From: an uncultured Gemmatimonadota bacterium
GTDB lineage: Bacteria > Gemmatimonadota > Gemmatimonadetes > Gemmatimonadales > Gemmatimonadaceae
Reading direction: 5' to 3'
DNA: 64,000 nucleotides
NCBI GenBank assembly: GCA_903882745.1
Contig: CAIRYG010000005.1
Span: 1 to 64,000, forward strand
Program-made: the position numbers and the translations under genes
The notes under the pieces: generated by a model
What the model was told of the DNA's origin: nothing
Databases searched by the model: none
The model's input: only the letters and a program-made list of their open reading frames with translations
Shown: positions 1 through 8,591 of the stretch, piece after piece
How the letters are laid out: each line of letters opens with the position of its first letter
Numbering within the stretch: position 1 is the stretch's first letter

Positions 1-63
1 ACCTTCGCCTTAAAGGCGGGGGCATGATTCCGGCGTTGACGTTTCGACATCTGGAGCTCCTGG

Positions 64-1248
64 GTGAGAGGCGAACATGTCGCCGTGGAGCCCGCCTGTC
101 CACTCATCCGACCTGTTCAGATAACCGAGACCACTTCTCTAAGTCTCCTTTGGCAGCGGCTTTGCGCAGATGATGTAATCAACTATTTCAAGATCGATGA
201 GCAGGATCTTGATCGTATTGTCGACATCTTTGTCCGAGTCAACAGTGCGGGTGTACAGCTATCAAAGACCGACCTTCTATTCTCGACCATTGTCGCACAT
301 TGGGATGAGGGCAGAGCTAACATCGAAACGACCCTTACGTCCCTTAACGGAAAAGGTAGTCGATTCAAGTTCGACAACGACTTCATGATGCGGAGCTGTC
401 TGGTGTTAACGGATTTGCCGGTTCTCTTCAAGGCAAAATCCTTCCGCAAAGAAAGTATTGAAGAGATCGAGCGGAACTGGGATTCCATTCGGATCGCCCT
501 AGAGAAGACCGTCGACCTCCTTGTCGACTGGGGGTTTTCCGCTGAGACGCTTCCGACACTGAACGCCGTCATCCCAATCGCCTACTTCATCTACAAGGGC
601 GGTGATGTCGCATCGTCGAACGGAGCGCTGCGACAGTACCTGACGCGCGCTCTCATCAAGCAGATCTTTGCCAGCCAGACTGACAGGGTGCTCGCGGCGA
701 TTAGGGAGTATTTGCGTGTAATGCTAAGTGGTGGATCAGAGTACGAACTAAGAACGAAGCAGTTGACCATGAAAGATGTGGTCGAAATGAAACTTCCCGC
801 CGCCCGCAGTCTTGCGATAACAAGCGCCGACATCGACGACATGCTCGACGAGCAGAAGGGGCCCTATACGTTCATGCTTCTCGCGCTGCTATACCCTCAG
901 CTGAAGCTCGGACAGATTGCCTTCCATCAGGATCGTCTGCATCCGTGGAGTCAGTTTGCCAGCAAGAAGTTGGCAAAGCTCGGCCTTTCCGAAACCGAGA
1001 TCCGGAAATGGCAGGAGGATCGGGATCGCCTTCCCAATCTCCAACTACTCGAAGGGACAGAGAACCAGAGCAAGAACGACAGTCCGCTCCTAACCTGGAT
1101 GGGCACGCTCGGCCCCAGTCGAGCCCACTATGAGCAGGGTAACTACATCCCCTCAGGGGTTGGTCTCTCCTTAGACGACTTTCCAAGCTTCTTCATTGCC
1201 CGGAAGGACATACTGCGGGCACGACTTCAGGGTGTGTTCTCGGAATGA
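64..1248 (+). CDS. DUF262/GmrSD-type protein, N-terminally truncated
   Basis: This 394-residue reading frame matches the C-terminal half of DUF262/GmrS-type proteins. It has the family signature RVNSAGVQLSKTDLL near residue 57, where RVNSGG..LS..DLL is usual. Near the end it has HP, LPNLQLL and ENQSK motifs like the HNH-type (DUF1524) tail of these type IV restriction enzymes. The N-terminal DUF262 core with its DGQQR-type motif is absent. Frame 1 upstream is closed by TGA at 25-27 and 37-39, so the GTG at 64 is only the first possible start and the first ~25 residues look non-homologous. The gene is therefore either 5'-truncated or frameshifted. It overlaps pglZ by ATGA. GmrSD-like enzymes (such as BrxU) are known passengers of BREX loci, which fits this position. 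Confidence 0.6.
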   Translation: MRGEHVAVEPACPLIRPVQITETTSLSLLWQRLCADDVINYFKIDEQDLDRIVDIFVRVNSAGVQLSKTDLLFSTIVAHWDEGRANIETTLTSLNGKGSRFKFDNDFMMRSCLVLTDLPVLFKAKSFRKESIEEIERNWDSIRIALEKTVDLLVDWGFSAETLPTLNAVIPIAYFIYKGGDVASSNGALRQYLTRALIKQIFASQTDRVLAAIREYLRVMLSGGSEYELRTKQLTMKDVVEMKLPAARSLAITSADIDDMLDEQKGPYTFMLLALLYPQLKLGQIAFHQDRLHPWSQFASKKLAKLGLSETEIRKWQEDRDRLPNLQLLEGTENQSKNDSPLLTWMGTLGPSRAHYEQGNYIPSGVGLSLDDFPSFFIARKDILRARLQGVFSE

Positions 1249-3734
1249 AACGCATTTACGATGGCTTAGCGCGCGCGTTCGACCGCAACAGGCTCGTCTT
1301 CTGGTATGACGGCGCCGGCGAGTGGAACGACACATTCGACGGCTACGCCGAGGCAGGCGTCATCAAGCTGCGCGTCGCAAATGACGAGTTCGCGACCAAG
1401 GTCCGAGTCGTTCGTCAGCCCGACACCCGCTTTCTACTGTATGTGCCTGGCCCAAAGCCGAACGACGCCGACAACTGGTTGCTCGATCTTCTGCTCCAGG
1501 GCCACGAGTTCCGCGCTGACAAAGCTGCTCTTGGTGCCGAGGAAGCGGGACTTCCGCAGGAGTTCTGGTACCTCGCCGCAGACCACTCGGCGTTCTTCAA
1601 CAGCACCAAACGTATCTCCGCGTTGCGGGAGATTGTTGCCACGGAAGACCAAGCGCACGACGTCCGCCTCAAGATGATGTCCGTGCTCACAGGAACGCAG
1701 CCAGAGCTGGATACGCTTCTGCGTCACTTCCTCGCGCGAGGACTGAACGTCAAGCTAGCTGACCCTGTTTCAGAAGCACTTGCAGCGGCCGCTCTGGATG
1801 AGCCGTTCTGGCATGCTGTGGCTCAGCGTTTCGGGTACGCCGTAGCATCGCCATCCATTCGGGAGTTTGCCGTCACACTGTTCCGCGCCGCGAATCCGCT
1901 GGACAAGAAGGCCACCCTTCTGCCACATGCGACGGTATTCCTTCGAAATTGGAAGGACAGCCTCGCCCACAAAGCCGCGTACGAGCACTGGGCGAACACA
2001 CTGGAAGAAGACCTTCAGATCGCCGTTTCGCTCGGCGCCCTCGACGAAGGTGCGCTACTTGGCGAGAACGATACTTTCGAGCTGTTTGAGCGGTTCACGC
2101 TGCACCGGCTGGTGGGCGCATTCGAACACAACAGTCCCTCCGGAGATCTCCGCGCCGTTATTCAGCAGCGGCGCGGCTCCTTCTGGCGTGATAAGCACGC
2201 CGATGGATACGATGCGCTGGAACACGCTGTTACGCTTCGCGAGCTACTCGACGCGGCTGACTTAGAGTTCGAGTCGATGGAAGCTGGCGCGCGCCGATAC
2301 GCCGCGACGTGGTGGAAGATCGATATGGAGTATCGGTGCTGCTCGTACCATATGCGGCGGTACAGTCAGCCACAGGTCATGGAACCCGTGAGGGAATGGG
2401 TCGAGAAGCATTACGTCAACACTTTCCTGCTTCCCCTTGCTGAGCGTTGGGGTGATCAGGTAAAACGTCTCGATCGCTGGGATTGCAACGGCATTCCCGG
2501 GCAACGGCGATTCTTCGAAACTTTCGTGCAACCTTTCTTGTCGAAAGGGCAGAAGGTGTTCGTCATCATTTCCGACGCGCTCCGCTACGAGGCCGCTGCG
2601 AACTTTGCTCAGCGGTTGGGAGAATCGAACCGGTGGTCCGCCGAGGTGGAGCCCATACTCAGCGCTCTTCCCTCCTTTACGCAACTTGGCATGGCGTCCC
2701 TACTTCCGGGCCGAGAGTGCTCGATCGACGCAGTCACAGGTAGCGCGAGCGTTGATGGACGGAGTGCGACGGGTACGCCGAATCGGAGCGTGATTCTGGC
2801 GCTCGCCTGCGCTGGACGCGGGACCGCCATCCAAGCCGAAGACTTTCTCACCATGAACGCGAGAACGGATGGTCGCGATCTCATGCGTGACAACGACGTC
2901 GTGTACATCTACCACAACAAGATCGATCACATCGGCGACAAGACGACCACCGAGGTCCAGACGACCGACGCTGTCGCCCAAGCGTTCGAGGAACTAGAAA
3001 CGATCATCAAAAAGGTCGCCACTATCAATGGCACGAACATGCTGTTGACCGCGGACCACGGATTTCTCTTCCAGCAAACAGCCGTCGAGGAAGGAGATAT
3101 GACTTATCTTCCACACGCGGCAAAGTGGGGCAGTCAAAGTCGTCGCTACGCGCTTGGCTGGGGGATCGCAGCGGTCGCCGACGTCAAACAGTTCAGCGCC
3201 GCGGCACTTGGTGTAGGCGGCGATTGGACCGGAGCATTTCCCCTGGCCCTCGGTCGCTTTCTCGTTCGCGGTTCAGGCAACCGGTACGTGCATGGCGGAA
3301 TTAGTCTTCAGGAAGTGATCGTCCCGGTGGTGAAGATCCGCAAGACGCGCACCGATGATGTCGTTCAGGTGGGTATCGATATCCTGCGGGTGCCGCCCAA
3401 GATTACGACTGGGCAGCTTGCGCTTTCGGTCTATCAAGAGCAAGCCGTGGCAGACAAAGTGCGGCCGCGCACTCTTCGCATCGGCCTGTTCGCTAAGGAT
3501 GGCGGTCAGTTGTCGGAGTTGAAGACCATCACCTTCGACTCGAAGGAGCCGGAGGCGCGAATGCGCGAGACTCCGGTGCTCCTCGTGCTCTCTGGTGCCG
3601 CCGACGGTCAGAACAATCGCACGGTCGAACTTCGGCTCGAAGAGCCAGTTCAAGGGACGAGCCAGTGGGTCACGTACAAGATGCACGACCTCAAAATTCA
3701 GAAGGCCTTTATGAGCGACTTCGATGACGTCTGA
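1245..3734 (+). CDS. pglZ: BREX type 1 phosphatase-like protein PglZ
   Basis: The 829-residue product matches BREX-1 PglZ in length and architecture, with an alkaline-phosphatase-superfamily core in the second half. Visible metal-site motifs are FVIISDALRYEA with Asp444 and LLTADHGF around residues 600-607. PglZ is an essential BREX component; recent family work points to nuclease or phosphodiesterase activity rather than simple phosphatase activity. It starts at an ATG overlapping the stop of the DUF262-like gene and ends 11 nt inside brxL, so translation is coupled. The order DUF262-like, pglZ, brxL is that of the 3' half of a type 1 BREX operon; brxA, brxB, brxC and pglX must lie upstream of the window if the system is complete. 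Confidence 0.9.
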   Translation: MKRIYDGLARAFDRNRLVFWYDGAGEWNDTFDGYAEAGVIKLRVANDEFATKVRVVRQPDTRFLLYVPGPKPNDADNWLLDLLLQGHEFRADKAALGAEEAGLPQEFWYLAADHSAFFNSTKRISALREIVATEDQAHDVRLKMMSVLTGTQPELDTLLRHFLARGLNVKLADPVSEALAAAALDEPFWHAVAQRFGYAVASPSIREFAVTLFRAANPLDKKATLLPHATVFLRNWKDSLAHKAAYEHWANTLEEDLQIAVSLGALDEGALLGENDTFELFERFTLHRLVGAFEHNSPSGDLRAVIQQRRGSFWRDKHADGYDALEHAVTLRELLDAADLEFESMEAGARRYAATWWKIDMEYRCCSYHMRRYSQPQVMEPVREWVEKHYVNTFLLPLAERWGDQVKRLDRWDCNGIPGQRRFFETFVQPFLSKGQKVFVIISDALRYEAAANFAQRLGESNRWSAEVEPILSALPSFTQLGMASLLPGRECSIDAVTGSASVDGRSATGTPNRSVILALACAGRGTAIQAEDFLTMNARTDGRDLMRDNDVVYIYHNKIDHIGDKTTTEVQTTDAVAQAFEELETIIKKVATINGTNMLLTADHGFLFQQTAVEEGDMTYLPHAAKWGSQSRRYALGWGIAAVADVKQFSAAALGVGGDWTGAFPLALGRFLVRGSGNRYVHGGISLQEVIVPVVKIRKTRTDDVVQVGIDILRVPPKITTGQLALSVYQEQAVADKVRPRTLRIGLFAKDGGQLSELKTITFDSKEPEARMRETPVLLVLSGAADGQNNRTVELRLEEPVQGTSQWVTYKMHDLKIQKAFMSDFDDV

Positions 3735-5865
3735 TCCACTGCCTGCCAATGAGGGCGAGGTAGCAGCGCCAGCGGTGCATGCGCCGACCGCACTCGACCG
3801 AAAGATCCTCGAGAACTTTCCCGGGCTCGTTGTGCGAAAGGACTTGACGCAGGGGCTGAAGCAGAACGCGGTCGTTCCGACGTATGTGCTCGAGTATCTA
3901 CTCGGCCAGCACTGTGCAACTGACGACCCGGCAGTCATCGCCGCAGGCCTGGAGTCCGTCCAGCGCATTCTCGCCAAGCACTACGTGCATCGAAATCAGG
4001 CGGAGCTGGTCAAGTCCACGATCAAGGAGAAGGGTCGGCACAAGGTAATCGACAAGCTGACTGTGGAGCTGAACGATAAGGGCGGATTCTACGAGGCCGA
4101 GTTCACAAATCTCGGGCTCAAAAAAGTGCCTGTCGCCGATGATTTCGTGCGCCGGTATCCGAAGCTGCTGGTTGGCGGGATCCGGTGCATCACGGATGTC
4201 ACCTACGAAGTGATGGAGGATCCGAAGGGAAGTCCATGGCAGATCGAGACGTTGAAGCCCATTCAGGTCGCGAACGCAAACGTCGATGAATACCTTGCCG
4301 CGCGAGCGAAGTTCACAACGGACGAGTGGATGGATGTGCTCATGCAGAGCATGGGCTTCAATCCTGAGTTCTTTGGGCGCCGAGCGAAGCTGCTGACCCT
4401 GATTCGCCTCATCCCGTATTGCGAGCGCAACTACAACCTTCTCGAGCTCGGTCCAAAGGGAACTGGCAAATCTCACATCTACGCCGAGTTTTCCCCGCAC
4501 GGGATGCTCATTTCTGGTTCTGAGGTGACGGCGCCAAAGCTATTCGTCAACAACAGCGCGCGTGGAAAGATTGGTCTCGTTGGTTATTGGGACTGCATCT
4601 GTTTTGATGAATTTGCCGGCAAGGACAAGAAGATTGATAAGTCACTCGTCGACATCATGAAGAACTACATGGCCAACCGAAGCTTCTCGCGCGGCATCGA
4701 GCAGCTCACGGCGGAGGCCTCCATGGTGTTCATGGGCAATACACAGAAGTCTGTTGCATACATGCTCAAGCATTCGCACTTCTTTGAACCGTTGCCGGAC
4801 AAGTACATCGATTCCGCTTTTCTGGATCGCATCCATGCGTACAACCCCGGATGGGAGGTCGCGCCGATTCGGCATGAGCTATTCTCGCATGGGTACGGCT
4901 TCGTGGTGGACTATATCGCCGAGGTACTGAAGCACCTGCGTACGGAAGACTTTTCGGGGGCGTACAAGAAGCACTTCGAAATTGCCGAAGAAGTCTCAAC
5001 GCGTGACCAAACCGGCTTTGAGAAGACGTTCTCGGGGCTGATGAAGATTCTCTATCCAGACGGAAAGTCTACGACGGCAGAGGTCGAGGAGCTCCTGTCG
5101 TTTGCAATGGAGTGTCGCCGCCGCGTACGCGAGCACATCCTGCGAATCGACGCGACCTTCAAGCGAAACGAATTCGCATATCGACCAGTCGGTGGGGGCG
5201 CGACGGTTCGGGTCGTGACGCCGGAAGAACTGCAGTATCCGGCATTTGCAGCTCCACCGACTCGCGAGGCCGAAGACGCGCCCCAGCCGGTTGGCGGCGA
5301 GCCTTCAGGAGCCGCGGCAGTCCCTCGCGACAGCGCTGGGCCGGCTGCCCTTCCAGTCGCTCCGAACGAAGCAGCAAGCAATACTGCTGCAATTCACGTA
5401 GTGGTTCCTGAGAACGCCAAGGGTTGGAGCTATCGACGGCTCTTTGCTGGATACTTAGCGGGCGCGACAAAGATCACGATCCGGGATCCCTATGTCCGCC
5501 AGTTCTTCCAAGTGCGAAACCTCGTAGACCTCTTGCATCTGGTGTACGAAATGGCACCGGAGGGGGATGAGGTTGCGGTACACCTGACAACGTACGCGGA
5601 CTCAGAAACCGCCGAGAGGCAGGAGGAGTTCTTGAATCAGGTCGTCAAGAACTTCGTCGGGTCTAAGGTGGCCTTCACCTGGGACATCGACTCAAGCCCC
5701 AATTTCCATGCGCGGAGTATCGTGACGGATACGGGCTGGAAGATCAGTCTGGATAGAGGACTCGATCTCTTTCAGCGGTTCGAGGGGGGGCCGCTGTCGC
5801 TGGAGCAGGGCAGTCAGGAGGCGCGGTTGACGCGTGGGTCTGAGATCAGCTATCTAAGAACGTAG
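3724..5865 (+). CDS. brxL: BrxL AAA+ protein with MIT_C C-terminal domain
   Basis: This 713-residue protein has the BrxL AAA+ core (TIGR02688-type): Walker A GPKGTGKS at residues 243-250 and a Walker-B-like CFDEF with Asp295-Glu296. A proline/alanine-rich linker covers about 510-555. The C-terminus is unusual. Residues ~560-705 do not look like the Lon protease domain expected in BrxL. They match the phospholipase-D-like MIT_C domain of MITD1: GWSYRRLFAGYL, then ITIRDPYVRQF, then a TDTGWKISLDRGLDLFQRF block. No HKD phospholipase motif is present, and in MITD1 this fold binds membranes. BrxL forms DNA-binding AAA+ rings required for phage exclusion. The gene overlaps pglZ by 11 nt. The MIT_C call comes from motif recognition, and its function here is inference. 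Confidence 0.85.
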   Translation: MTSDPLPANEGEVAAPAVHAPTALDRKILENFPGLVVRKDLTQGLKQNAVVPTYVLEYLLGQHCATDDPAVIAAGLESVQRILAKHYVHRNQAELVKSTIKEKGRHKVIDKLTVELNDKGGFYEAEFTNLGLKKVPVADDFVRRYPKLLVGGIRCITDVTYEVMEDPKGSPWQIETLKPIQVANANVDEYLAARAKFTTDEWMDVLMQSMGFNPEFFGRRAKLLTLIRLIPYCERNYNLLELGPKGTGKSHIYAEFSPHGMLISGSEVTAPKLFVNNSARGKIGLVGYWDCICFDEFAGKDKKIDKSLVDIMKNYMANRSFSRGIEQLTAEASMVFMGNTQKSVAYMLKHSHFFEPLPDKYIDSAFLDRIHAYNPGWEVAPIRHELFSHGYGFVVDYIAEVLKHLRTEDFSGAYKKHFEIAEEVSTRDQTGFEKTFSGLMKILYPDGKSTTAEVEELLSFAMECRRRVREHILRIDATFKRNEFAYRPVGGGATVRVVTPEELQYPAFAAPPTREAEDAPQPVGGEPSGAAAVPRDSAGPAALPVAPNEAASNTAAIHVVVPENAKGWSYRRLFAGYLAGATKITIRDPYVRQFFQVRNLVDLLHLVYEMAPEGDEVAVHLTTYADSETAERQEEFLNQVVKNFVGSKVAFTWDIDSSPNFHARSIVTDTGWKISLDRGLDLFQRFEGGPLSLEQGSQEARLTRGSEISYLRT

Positions 5866-5912: not shown

Positions 5913-6311
5913 CTAACCTACTCGGAAACGCTTCATTGCATCCGCGGCATTCTCATCGCACGGCTCGATGATTCCTCGTCGAAGCCAGAAGTGGCTTCCA
6001 CAGCCATCTAACCTCCACACGGATGGCGATATCGTAGGTCGTCCTAGAAAGTCGACACGCACCGACCAAGATGGATGCCGACGTTGATCGAGATTGAGGT
6101 GCACGACGTCCGTACAACCACAGGGGCAAGCCAGGACGAGCCACTTCGGGCGTTCAGCGCCGAGTATGATAACGCACTCGCGCGCCTCGAGCGCTTGATT
6201 CGCGGGCTGTGCTGTTTGAGCTCGCACGAAATACACACGCGAGTCAGCGCGAGCTCGAAGTTGACCGGCCAATTCGAACCAAAACCAAAGCGCCCTACGA
6301 AAAAGAGTCAT
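5913..6311 (-). CDS. DUF6527 protein of a Bub operon (BubE-like)
   Basis: A 132-residue protein with the DUF6527 signature: PKWLVLACPCGC (Cys62, Cys64, Cys66), an RRHPSWSV block, ISPSVW, and CGSHFWLRRGII with Cys104 and His107. DUF6527 proteins are fixed partners of bacterial ubiquitination-like (Bub) operons, where they have been proposed to be peptidases acting on the ubiquitin-like protein. A longer reading frame starts at 6380. I chose ATG 6311 because it overlaps the upstream stop as ATGA and because homology begins only downstream. It is the last gene of the minus-strand operon and converges on brxL with a 47-bp gap. Confidence 0.85.
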   Translation of the reverse strand: MTLFRRALWFWFELAGQLRARADSRVYFVRAQTAQPANQALEARECVIILGAERPKWLVLACPCGCTDVVHLNLDQRRHPSWSVRVDFLGRPTISPSVWRLDGCGSHFWLRRGIIEPCDENAADAMKRFRVG

Positions 6312-7723
6312 CCCGTGCGGTCCAGATATGGAACAATATCTCCACGACCCCAATACGACGGATCTTCGCAAACAGAACAATTGGGATTGCGTTCCGCTCC
6401 CGGCCGGCGTTCAGACGACCGATGAGCAAATCGAACGCGGTGGTCTACGTGTCCGACGGGTCCACGAAAACCCTGTATTCGGTGCAGGAACTCCTCCATA
6501 GCAAGAATTGCAACGCCGGTGGTAAATGTAACGACGGCAGGACTTGGATTTCCCTCGCCCTCGACGTACGCCTCCGCCAGGTCGCGCGCATAGCGAAGCG
6601 GATCCATTCGCTCCAGTTGCTCCGCACGCGCGCGCGCCAAATTGACCACGCGGTGACATAGCAGACATCGCGTTCCGGGAGTCAATACCGTGACGCGCGC
6701 CTCAACATTGAGGCGCGCACCCGCATCCGACGTATTGACTGTGCTTCCGAGTCCAAGATCGATCACCGGCTTCAGGTAGAAGTATGCCAGTCGATTCAAT
6801 AGAAGTCTGCCATCATGATCATCGGTACAGCCAAAGACCAAGTCGCACGCAGCGAGCGCCGTTCGCACTGACGGATCATGAAGGTGCGTCGCGAAACGCA
6901 CGACCCTCGTTCCAAGTCCCATTCGCTCCACTTCTCGCGCCATGACGTCGACTTTGAGTTTCTTCTGGTCCGCATCGTCGAGTGTCGCACCGTGAAGCCT
7001 GCCGAGATTGGTGTGATCTACATAGTCGGGGTCAACAACGAGCAATTGTCCGACACCTAGGCGGGCGAGTTGCATGGTTAGTGCGCTTCCCGTTCCCCCC
7101 ACTCCGACCACACCGACCCGCAGTGCGCGCAGGTCGTCCGTAAGTGCTCCACCGAGTGCGAGTGCCTGTCGATTCCACGCTCTCGCCAGTTCCCGAGCGA
7201 CCGGGCGTGCGTCGTGGCGAAGCCGAAACCGATTTCCGACGGTCAGAATACGGTCGCTGCATTCTACTTTCTCTGGCGACGCCCACTTACGGACCAACCA
7301 AGTATCGTCCGGCGCGAGCAAGATGCTCAAGAATGGGTCCGTTGTCCGGTTGCGTCGCTGAAGCAGTGAACAGAGTTCGGACTCGCTGGTATCGTCCTGG
7401 CGAGACCAATTGCTTGGACCGTGGGGGTGTGAATGCACGACACCCAAGAGCCACTTTTCTTGACGCGCACGACGGAGAAGACGCACAAACGTCTCCGTCC
7501 GCCACGTAATCTGAACCGGAGACGCTGTCAGAATATCTGTGTGGGCAATCGGAACGACTTCGTGCAAAAGGAAACGCTCAGTTGGAGCGCCAGTCCACGG
7601 GTCGTGGGGAATTGTTGCGCGGCCGAGTAGCACGTACGCGACTCCTTCGTTCTCGCCGTTCGAGAATACGAGGTCGCGCAACCGCGATTCATCGGCTTCG
7701 GTCATGACGACGGTGAACGTCAT
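6308..7723 (-). CDS. JAB deubiquitinase-like / E1 (ThiF) fusion
   Basis: A 471-residue two-domain protein. Residues 1-~145 are a JAB/JAMM metallopeptidase with every zinc-site residue present: Glu26, His97-x-His99, and Ser107-x-x-Asp110 at canonical HxHx7SxxD spacing. Residues ~195-450 are a ThiF/E1 adenylation domain: nucleotide loop GVGGTGS (207-213), the DPDYVDHTNLGR segment, Cys293 and Cys299 as candidate catalytic cysteines, and one CxxC pair (353/356). The second CxxC expected for a structural zinc is not obvious. It would adenylate and conjugate the ubiquitin-like protein encoded upstream and also remove it. I chose ATG 7723 over a longer frame at 7816 because of the ATGA overlap with the E2 gene. 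It resembles Cap2/Cap3 chemistry in one chain, but the neighbours indicate a Bub operon, not CBASS. Confidence 0.92.
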   Translation of the reverse strand: MTFTVVMTEADESRLRDLVFSNGENEGVAYVLLGRATIPHDPWTGAPTERFLLHEVVPIAHTDILTASPVQITWRTETFVRLLRRARQEKWLLGVVHSHPHGPSNWSRQDDTSESELCSLLQRRNRTTDPFLSILLAPDDTWLVRKWASPEKVECSDRILTVGNRFRLRHDARPVARELARAWNRQALALGGALTDDLRALRVGVVGVGGTGSALTMQLARLGVGQLLVVDPDYVDHTNLGRLHGATLDDADQKKLKVDVMAREVERMGLGTRVVRFATHLHDPSVRTALAACDLVFGCTDDHDGRLLLNRLAYFYLKPVIDLGLGSTVNTSDAGARLNVEARVTVLTPGTRCLLCHRVVNLARARAEQLERMDPLRYARDLAEAYVEGEGNPSPAVVTFTTGVAILAMEEFLHRIQGFRGPVGHVDHRVRFAHRSSERRPGAERNPNCSVCEDPSYWGRGDIVPYLDRTG

Positions 7724-8121
7724 TGCGTGGCCGCTCCCAGCGCCAGCTTCATGCGTGCAATCATTGTCCAAATACCGTCCTTTCCCGGTTGCCATTCCGG
7801 ATTGTGCCTTGACCATCGTTGCCAGTCTCGGTCAATGAAGCGCTGAGTGGTATCAGCGGCACGCGGGCAGGCACCGCTCTGCTTGAGGCGGGCCCAGGGA
7901 TCGAGGTAGAACATGTCGATCGGTACGTCGGGATAGCCGGGGGGTAGCAGAAAGAGGACATCTGTCTTCGCGATGTCGTACTTGTCAGTCGGAAGACAAA
8001 CATCGCGAAGAATCACAGCGGCCTGTCCGCCTTCCCTGATCTCCTCGAATGGTAGCGCCGTGCGTTCGAGATAGGCGCGGTCTCGACTGGGCAATACCAG
8101 CATAGCGGGTGCGTCGATCAT
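7720..8121 (-). CDS. E2-like protein (Prok-E2_E family)
   Basis: A 133-residue protein matching the Prok-E2_E family found next to multi-ubiquitin proteins. Key features are LPPGYPDVPIDMFYLDP (59-75), the E2-like YP loop, followed by WQRWSRHNPEW (100-110) and a C-terminal helix. Two cysteines could accept the ubiquitin-like protein: Cys85 in SGACPRAA, just after the conserved strand, and Cys42. Cys85 sits nearer where E2 catalytic cysteines fall, but I cannot decide between them. The ATG at 8121 overlaps the stop of the multi-ubiquitin gene (TGATG), and its own stop overlaps the next start (ATGA). This tight coupling suggests stoichiometric synthesis of the conjugation enzymes. Confidence 0.88.
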   Translation of the reverse strand: MIDAPAMLVLPSRDRAYLERTALPFEEIREGGQAAVILRDVCLPTDKYDIAKTDVLFLLPPGYPDVPIDMFYLDPWARLKQSGACPRAADTTQRFIDRDWQRWSRHNPEWQPGKDGIWTMIARMKLALGAATQ

Positions 8122-8591
8122 CAGCGCCGCCCCTCGGTGGTCGCCCCTCGGGCGGAGAAGAAACGTTCCGCGTCTTTGCCGTCGAGTGAGGCTGACTTGC
8201 CGGTCGCGATGAGGTGGTCGTCGCCGCCAACGACCTCTTGCCAGACGTCGAAAGTGGCCGGATCTACCCCGGCAAGTTCCTTGAGATCTTCGGCAGAAAT
8301 TGAAACACTGCCCCAGTCAAACTGAACGTCATCGACGAAGAGTCGGAAGGTTCGGTCACTCTTCCAAGTTTGAAAACGTTCGACCTCCATCGAGGAGAGG
8401 TCGACCTCTTGATTCAACCGAAGAAGGGCACGCTGGCGATTCTTGAGTACCTGAGCGATCTGGAACTCTGCCGCTGGCACTCGCTCGGCGGCGATGAGGA
8501 TCTCCTCGGCAGTCACTTTCGACTTTGGCAGGACAACCTTCTGAAGATCGACTACGACGACAACTGGTTCTGTGGTGTGCGTGGTCATCAT
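8121..8591 (-). CDS. Multi-ubiquitin-type ubiquitin-like protein (BubA-like)
   Basis: A 156-residue protein consisting of two related beta-grasp-like units, roughly residues 9-80 and 81-150. Each shows the pattern of a short strand, V/I-S/T-AEDL or AEEI helix, then a strand with D/L. The second unit opens with FRLFVDDVQFDWGSVSISAE. It fits the Multi_ubiq family that heads Bub operons. The C-terminus is ...GATTEGRR, not a free Gly-Gly, so it would need trimming or uses a different acceptor chemistry. It starts at ATG 8591 with GGAG 8-9 nt upstream. As first gene of the operon it follows a good minus-strand promoter at 8658-8686. Confidence 0.85.
   Translation of the reverse strand: MMTTHTTEPVVVVVDLQKVVLPKSKVTAEEILIAAERVPAAEFQIAQVLKNRQRALLRLNQEVDLSSMEVERFQTWKSDRTFRLFVDDVQFDWGSVSISAEDLKELAGVDPATFDVWQEVVGGDDHLIATGKSASLDGKDAERFFSARGATTEGRR

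Follow-up and report, generated by a model that had tools for sequence, protein, structure and literature searches.

Questions raised by the locus

BrxL assembles on DNA as a ring, in an ATP-dependent manner, with the DNA bound in its pore, and in the ordinary protein a C-terminal Lon-like domain, which lacks the protease dyad, mediates dimerisation between rings (PMC10164562). The DNA analysed here, called hereafter the window, is a stretch of 64,000 nt of contig CAIRYG010000005.1 (assembly GCA_903882745.1) from an uncultured Gemmatimonadota bacterium. It encodes a BrxL without the C-terminal Lon-like domain, a feature that is not universal in BrxL. What is the domain found in its place, and does it act at the membrane, as an earlier note on this DNA had suggested, or on DNA? 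The analysis below indicates that the domain swap is real and of an already described kind, and that the effector is most likely of nuclease type, not a membrane one. The BREX question of what damages phage DNA is thereby tied to one defined domain with a diverged active site.

A BrxL core with a different C-terminal domain

The gene and the parts of its product are the following.

3724..5865 (+): brxL, MIT_C/PLD variant at the C-terminus; ORF of 713 aa
3814..4206 (+): BrxL_N domain, residues 31-161 (Pfam PF20442, E 1e-43)
4237..5175 (+): BrxL AAA+ ATPase domain (BrxL_ATPase), residues 172-484 (Pfam PF13337, E 1e-123)
4450-4473 (+): Walker A, GPKGTGKSH, residues 243-251, intact in the sequence
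4606-4611 (+): Walker B acidic pair, DE, residues 295-296, intact in the sequence
5260..5388 (+): Ala/Pro-rich linker, residues 513-555, predicted disordered (pLDDT <50), weakly conserved
5422..5856 (+): MIT_C (PLD-fold) domain, residues 567-711 (Pfam PF16565; AlphaFold2 model and PDB comparison)
5485..5499 (+): DPYVR motif, residues 588-592; D, P, Y and R invariant in the aligned BrxL-MIT_C proteins
5707..5730 (+): HxR(x)4D motif, HARSIVTD, residues 662-669, at the position of the PLD-family HxK(x)4D
5755..5766 (+): RGLD motif, residues 678-681, invariant, roughly at the GSxN position of classical PLD nucleases

The NCBIfam profile matching the 713-aa ORF is BrxL, and the PADLOC BrxL model PDLC02508 spans residues 23-713, tail included (E 7e-294). 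The AAA core had been described as intact, and this is borne out by the matches to BrxL_N and BrxL_ATPase and by the preserved Walker motifs. When the full-length protein was compared with the PDB (phmmer), the N-terminal domain and AAA+ ring of the solved Acinetobacter BrxL (8emc/8emh) aligned over residues 23-477 only (8emc, E 5e-140). The Lon-like domain lies outside the alignment, and the two proteins differ at the C-terminus, where the Acinetobacter BrxL has a catalytically dead Lon-like fold.

The tail scored 109 bits against the Pfam MIT_C profile (cut-off 25, E 2.4e-31), a sequence match far exceeding chance expectation, whereas no Lon profile of Pfam or NCBIfam matched the region. The earlier note had placed an MIT_C domain, and not Lon, at 5401-5865; this interval encloses the domain, and the three motifs quoted for it were located at residues 567-574, 588-594 and 671-684. 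Searched alone against the PDB (phmmer), the tail matched MITD1 (4a5z, E 6.5e-12), and a profile built from its bacterial relatives did so at E 5e-38. No MIT domain was found by Pfam in the window's BrxL, whose N-terminus is that of BrxL, so that it is unlike MITD1 proteins. The tail had also been said to stand in place of a Lon protease. It does occupy the Lon-like slot; the domain of ordinary BrxL, however, is already catalytically dead (PMC10164562, PMC12839542), and the swap thus removed no protease.

Predicted fold of the tail

An AlphaFold2 model of the tail, made with 36 alignment rows, had a mean pLDDT of 89. In comparisons with the PDB (Foldseek, VIA-align), its top match was MITD1 (Z 22.2, rmsd 2.0 over 154 residues), in agreement with the proposed likeness to the MITD1 C-terminal domain. 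The SauUSI nuclease domain came second (Z 10.8), and further PLD matches were the NgoAVII R protein (Z 9.5), NucT (9.2), Nuc (9.1) and BfiI (8.1). Phosphatidylserine synthase was also among the matches (Z about 8-10), and PLD-fold nucleases and PLD lipid enzymes are equally near the tail in structure. Lon-type chains were absent from the match lists, an absence that alone proves nothing; what the model places in the tail is a PLD fold instead of a Lon fold with a Ser-Lys dyad. As modelled, the tail thus has the PLD fold, not that of Lon. Among PDB proteins, sequence profiles of tail relatives matched MITD1 only and not a single PLD nuclease; the link from the tail to PLD nucleases therefore rests on structure and motif.

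A full-length AlphaFold model (pLDDT 66 overall, poor in its ATPase part) was used for the linker and for the separateness of the tail only. Residues 513-555 are disordered in it, so that the tail is predicted to hang on a flexible linker. The computations show that the N-terminal domain and ring ATPase are kept, and that a single-motif PLD-fold tail replaces the inactive Lon-like domain.

Active-site signature

The motif of the tail, HxR(x)4D, differs from the HxK(x)4D of the PLD/HKD superfamily by an R for the K. H662 and R664 were invariant in every member compared. The D at +7 (D669) was found in 92 of 96 members (98 pattern matches minus two off-target frames), a count biased by one genome-scan pattern that itself contains this D, while loci from the other pattern (e.g. 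L094-L116, HARDITTD) and from the scan for group B, a second lineage described below, are free of this bias. All 15 group-B members from viral contigs have the D; N or S is present at +7 in some BrxL members. MITD1 keeps the H and the R and has N at +7. RGLD is invariant, and is shared with MITD1 and with a dynamin fusion; the GSxN element is missing from the tail and RGLD stands at its place, where a functional equivalent is still conceivable.

Judged by sequence, then, the tail departs from active PLD nucleases at two positions, with R in place of K and RGLD in place of GSxN. AgaP, a PLD protein, requires its H, K and GSxN residues, whereas its E112A mutant is still toxic (PMC11442185); the GSxN difference is therefore the stronger caution against catalysis. 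We read the signature as that of a phosphate or phosphodiester site in use, at which catalysis may take place.

Nuclease, dead enzyme or membrane effector

The reading that we favour, with a probability of roughly 0.57, places this BrxL in the known 'HKD' variety of BREX type 1, with a tail that serves as a DNA-cutting effector paired across rings. In a recent survey, the same Lon replacement, with an HRD motif, is published as an endoDNase (PMC12839542), and cleavage of DNA by the window's tail is favoured because its HxRx4D motif fits the HRD motif of this 'HKD-endoDNase'. PLD nucleases with one motif per chain have one active site per dimer; in SauUSI, the nuclease domains hold the dimer together and form the active site, with an HxKx4E motif (PMC7913695).

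By analogy with such enzymes, pairing, cleavage and a defence role of the tail may be envisaged as follows. Where the BREX complex has marked foreign DNA, the ring ATPase would assemble on that DNA or move along it. PLD domains from adjacent or opposed rings would pair, as in SauUSI, BfiI and Nuc, and the two HxR motifs of the paired tails would form one active site, which would cut the DNA held in the complex via a covalent phospho-histidine, metal-free. The tail would then be a second DNA-damaging effector beside PglZ, and its pairing would also replace the ring-to-ring dimerisation that the Lon-like domain gives in ordinary BrxL.

Against a nuclease, the changes of K to R and of GSxN to RGLD are unusual for an active enzyme of the PLD family, as judged from sequence comparison; some BrxL members have N or S at +7, and MITD1, with its H and R but N at +7, is a known membrane binder (PMC6015221). 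The sequence departures of the tail would also suit a PLD fold that no longer catalyses; it would bind a partner protein or the phosphates of DNA and hold BrxL rings together as dimers, the cutting being left to PglZ. The Lon-like domain that was replaced likewise has an enzyme fold that is dead and serves dimerisation (PMC10164562), and PglZ is reported as a nuclease (PMC12839542). We nevertheless consider a dead enzyme rather unlikely: H, R and RGLD do not vary even between very distant members, which is stricter than mere binding would seem to require, and SLFN_AlbA_2, another enzyme-type domain, fills the same slot in one BrxL, which suggests an effector slot.

The earlier note had proposed a tail that acts at the membrane or binds lipids or nucleic acid. 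A BrxL working at the membrane, whose tail binds or cleaves phospholipid, could draw on the membrane binding of the MITD1 domain (PMC6015221), on the existence of a Dynamin_N + MIT_C protein in a bacterium, and on the 43-50% identity of group-B BrxL tails to MITD1. However, BrxL binds DNA in its pore (PMC10164562), a lipid role is less likely for a fusion to a DNA-ring protein, the window's domain is in the group that is less like MITD1 (29% identity), and PLD-fold nucleases are structurally as near to it as PLD lipid enzymes. The HxR(x4)D...RGLD signature, the PLD nuclease relatives and the fusion to a DNA-ring ATPase within a DNA-targeting system all point away from the membrane, a role that we hold to be improbable for this protein; of the two ligands proposed, nucleic acid is the better bet, and the membrane side found no support. 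A membrane role is possible for some MIT_C members, given the bacterial Dynamin_N + MIT_C protein. As for an ordinary Lon-like domain overlooked through divergence, databases do annotate BrxL as 'Lon protease-like', but with a PLD fold in the predicted structure and the similarity to 8emc ending at residue 477, hardly any likelihood is left to it. DNA cleavage thus appears likelier for the tail than the membrane reading, from its sequence and modelled fold, and the tail probably cuts or grips DNA.

Distribution and nearest known systems

Relatives of the tail are encoded at 292 stretches of the genome collection, and among the best 80 of these, which were examined, nearly all with a complete reading frame are BrxL. 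The tail is carried by 25 plasmids, most of them with the gene annotated brxL, and in the plasmid loci inspected pglZ, and often pglX too, lies directly upstream of brxL. The survey for the swap proposed earlier thus found MIT_C tails on BrxL in other bacterial phyla: the fusion recurs beside pglZ/pglX in Pseudomonadota, Actinomycetota and Bacteroidota, and is also present in a Bacillota MAG. Within the window's phylum, MIT_C matched above the cut-off in this genome only (1/395), with three others below it; BrxL was above the cut-off in 22 of the 395 genomes, mostly with Lon-like tails. In the class of the Paracoccus locus (L051), BrxL was found in 10 of 385 sampled genomes, and five of these ten have MIT_C tails, one internally deleted and one belonging to the genome that set the sample. 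The tail had no match in the phage genomes searched.

A BrxL with a PLD-fold tail is a known and common architecture, and the domain swap is not new. According to the 2026 survey (gkag035, PMC12839542), an HKD-endoDNase whose motif is HRD takes the place of the Lon domain in 1030 of 2913 type-1 BrxL taxa, pglZ is retained in nearly all BrxL-HKD loci, and the first report of BrxL-HKD is credited to Li et al. 2025 (gkaf357). We take the window's tail to be the same domain, from its position, motif and frequency; with the core kept and the K an R, no difference in kind from BrxL-HKD of BREX type 1 is apparent in the main text of the survey. A defence database of 2023 already contained this architecture at full length, since the PADLOC model PDLC02508 covers the tail.

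Among other systems, SauUSI (7clg), an ATP-dependent restriction endonuclease, resembles BrxL-MIT_C in joining a PLD-fold nuclease domain to an ATPase motor, but its nuclease is N-terminal, its motor is SF2 helicase-like, its motif is HxKx4E, and it has an SRA recognition domain. The C-terminal domain of MITD1 (4a5z, 2ymb) has the same fold as the tail, with the DPYxR, HxR and RGLD motifs in common; unlike the window's BrxL, MITD1 has an N-terminal ESCRT-III-binding MIT domain and N at +7, and binds membranes in cytokinesis.

The domain in BrxL's C-terminal slot can be exchanged: it is Lon-like, MIT_C or, in one genome, SLFN_AlbA_2. This third tail type (Pfam E 2e-17) occupies the Lon/MIT_C slot of a BrxL from the window's class (L013:1018-3057), and as a BrxL fusion it goes unmentioned in the part of the 2026 BREX survey drawn on here. 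MIT_C also occurs on other proteins. On a Thiodictyon plasmid (L042:5631-8474), a Dynamin_N GTPase, a membrane-type context, has a C-terminal MIT_C that keeps HxR(x4)D and RGLD, and on a Paenarthrobacter plasmid (L050:4413-5462) IF2_N is fused to MIT_C, without BrxL. Two brxL genes are damaged: a 610-aa BrxL (L161, genome G862) has an internal deletion in its MIT_C tail that removes the HxR and RGLD region, and on a plasmid of Hymenobacter BRD67 (L043) a decayed group-B brxL is split by the annotation into several successive pieces, MIT_C being an ORF by itself.

Two lineages and kinship to MITD1

When BrxL cores are placed in a tree with the tail left off, the MIT_C-BrxLs fall in two separate groups; the supported branches force 2 changes, against a shuffled mean of 17, in a tree where some long branches meet and the exact joins are unsure. 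The window's BrxL belongs to group A, and the tails in group B are of HDREIRxDN type. Six group-B members share 43-50% identity with human MITD1 (50% over 148 residues for the tail of L144), versus 29% for the window's tail. MITD1 joined group B with 100/100 support once the longest branches were left out, and again with more group-B rows added, in a tree that holds one eukaryotic sequence, is unrooted and gives no direction of transfer. This closeness suggests a common ancestor. We put forward, tentatively and as the less probable case, that the lipid-binding domain of MITD1 and the group-B tail come from one bacterial anti-phage module, swapped into BrxL at least twice; MITD1 would then carry a defence nuclease domain put to new use, the D of HxR(x4)D having been lost. 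If the kinship holds with wider eukaryotic sampling, the origin of a domain in a human ESCRT-III partner would lie in an anti-phage module.

No study joining MITD1 or MIT_C with BREX was found in the open-access literature searched, and the main text of PMC12839542 does not mention MIT domains. The MITD1 kinship of the BrxL tail appears little noticed; the two MIT_C-BrxL lineages and the kinship of MITD1 to group B are new as far as found.

State of the BREX locus

Upstream of brxL, the window contains the following.

1..138 (strand not assigned): insertion-sequence right end, which recurs where contigs C2 and C6 start
64..1248 (+): what is left, at the 3' side, of a DUF262/GmrSD_N-type gene (PADLOC HEC-05), with the insertion-sequence end in place of the 5' part
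1245..3734 (+): pglZ (BREX-1 PglZ type A), in the same operon as brxL (NCBIfam TIGR02687, E 3e-193)

The start of brxL and the end of pglZ share 11 nt. The end of contig C3 carries brxA, brxB and a brxC reduced to its first ~745 residues, truncated there by an insertion-sequence left end (L163). The left end is also found in C4 (L162), and the C2 and C6 starts with the right end are L166 and L164; the two ends are imperfect inverted repeats starting AGAAGTGG. No pglX was found in this assembly, from which a short contig may have been lost. A complete BREX type 1 set, with brxA, brxB, brxC, pglX, pglZ and brxL intact, was therefore not found, brxC being cut and pglX missing from the assembly. 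Two histories would account for this: IS-mediated loss of the remainder of brxC, of pglX and of the beginning of the DUF262-type gene, or the absence from the assembly of a short contig that lay between two IS copies. Under both, brxC is interrupted, so that, judging from the sequence, the locus is probably broken and BREX no longer functional in this genome. The brxL and pglZ reading frames are still open.

A bacterial ubiquitin-like conjugation cluster, made up of Multiubiquitin, Prok-E2 family E and JAB-ThiF (E1) genes, lies immediately downstream of brxL and on the other strand (6308-8591, -).
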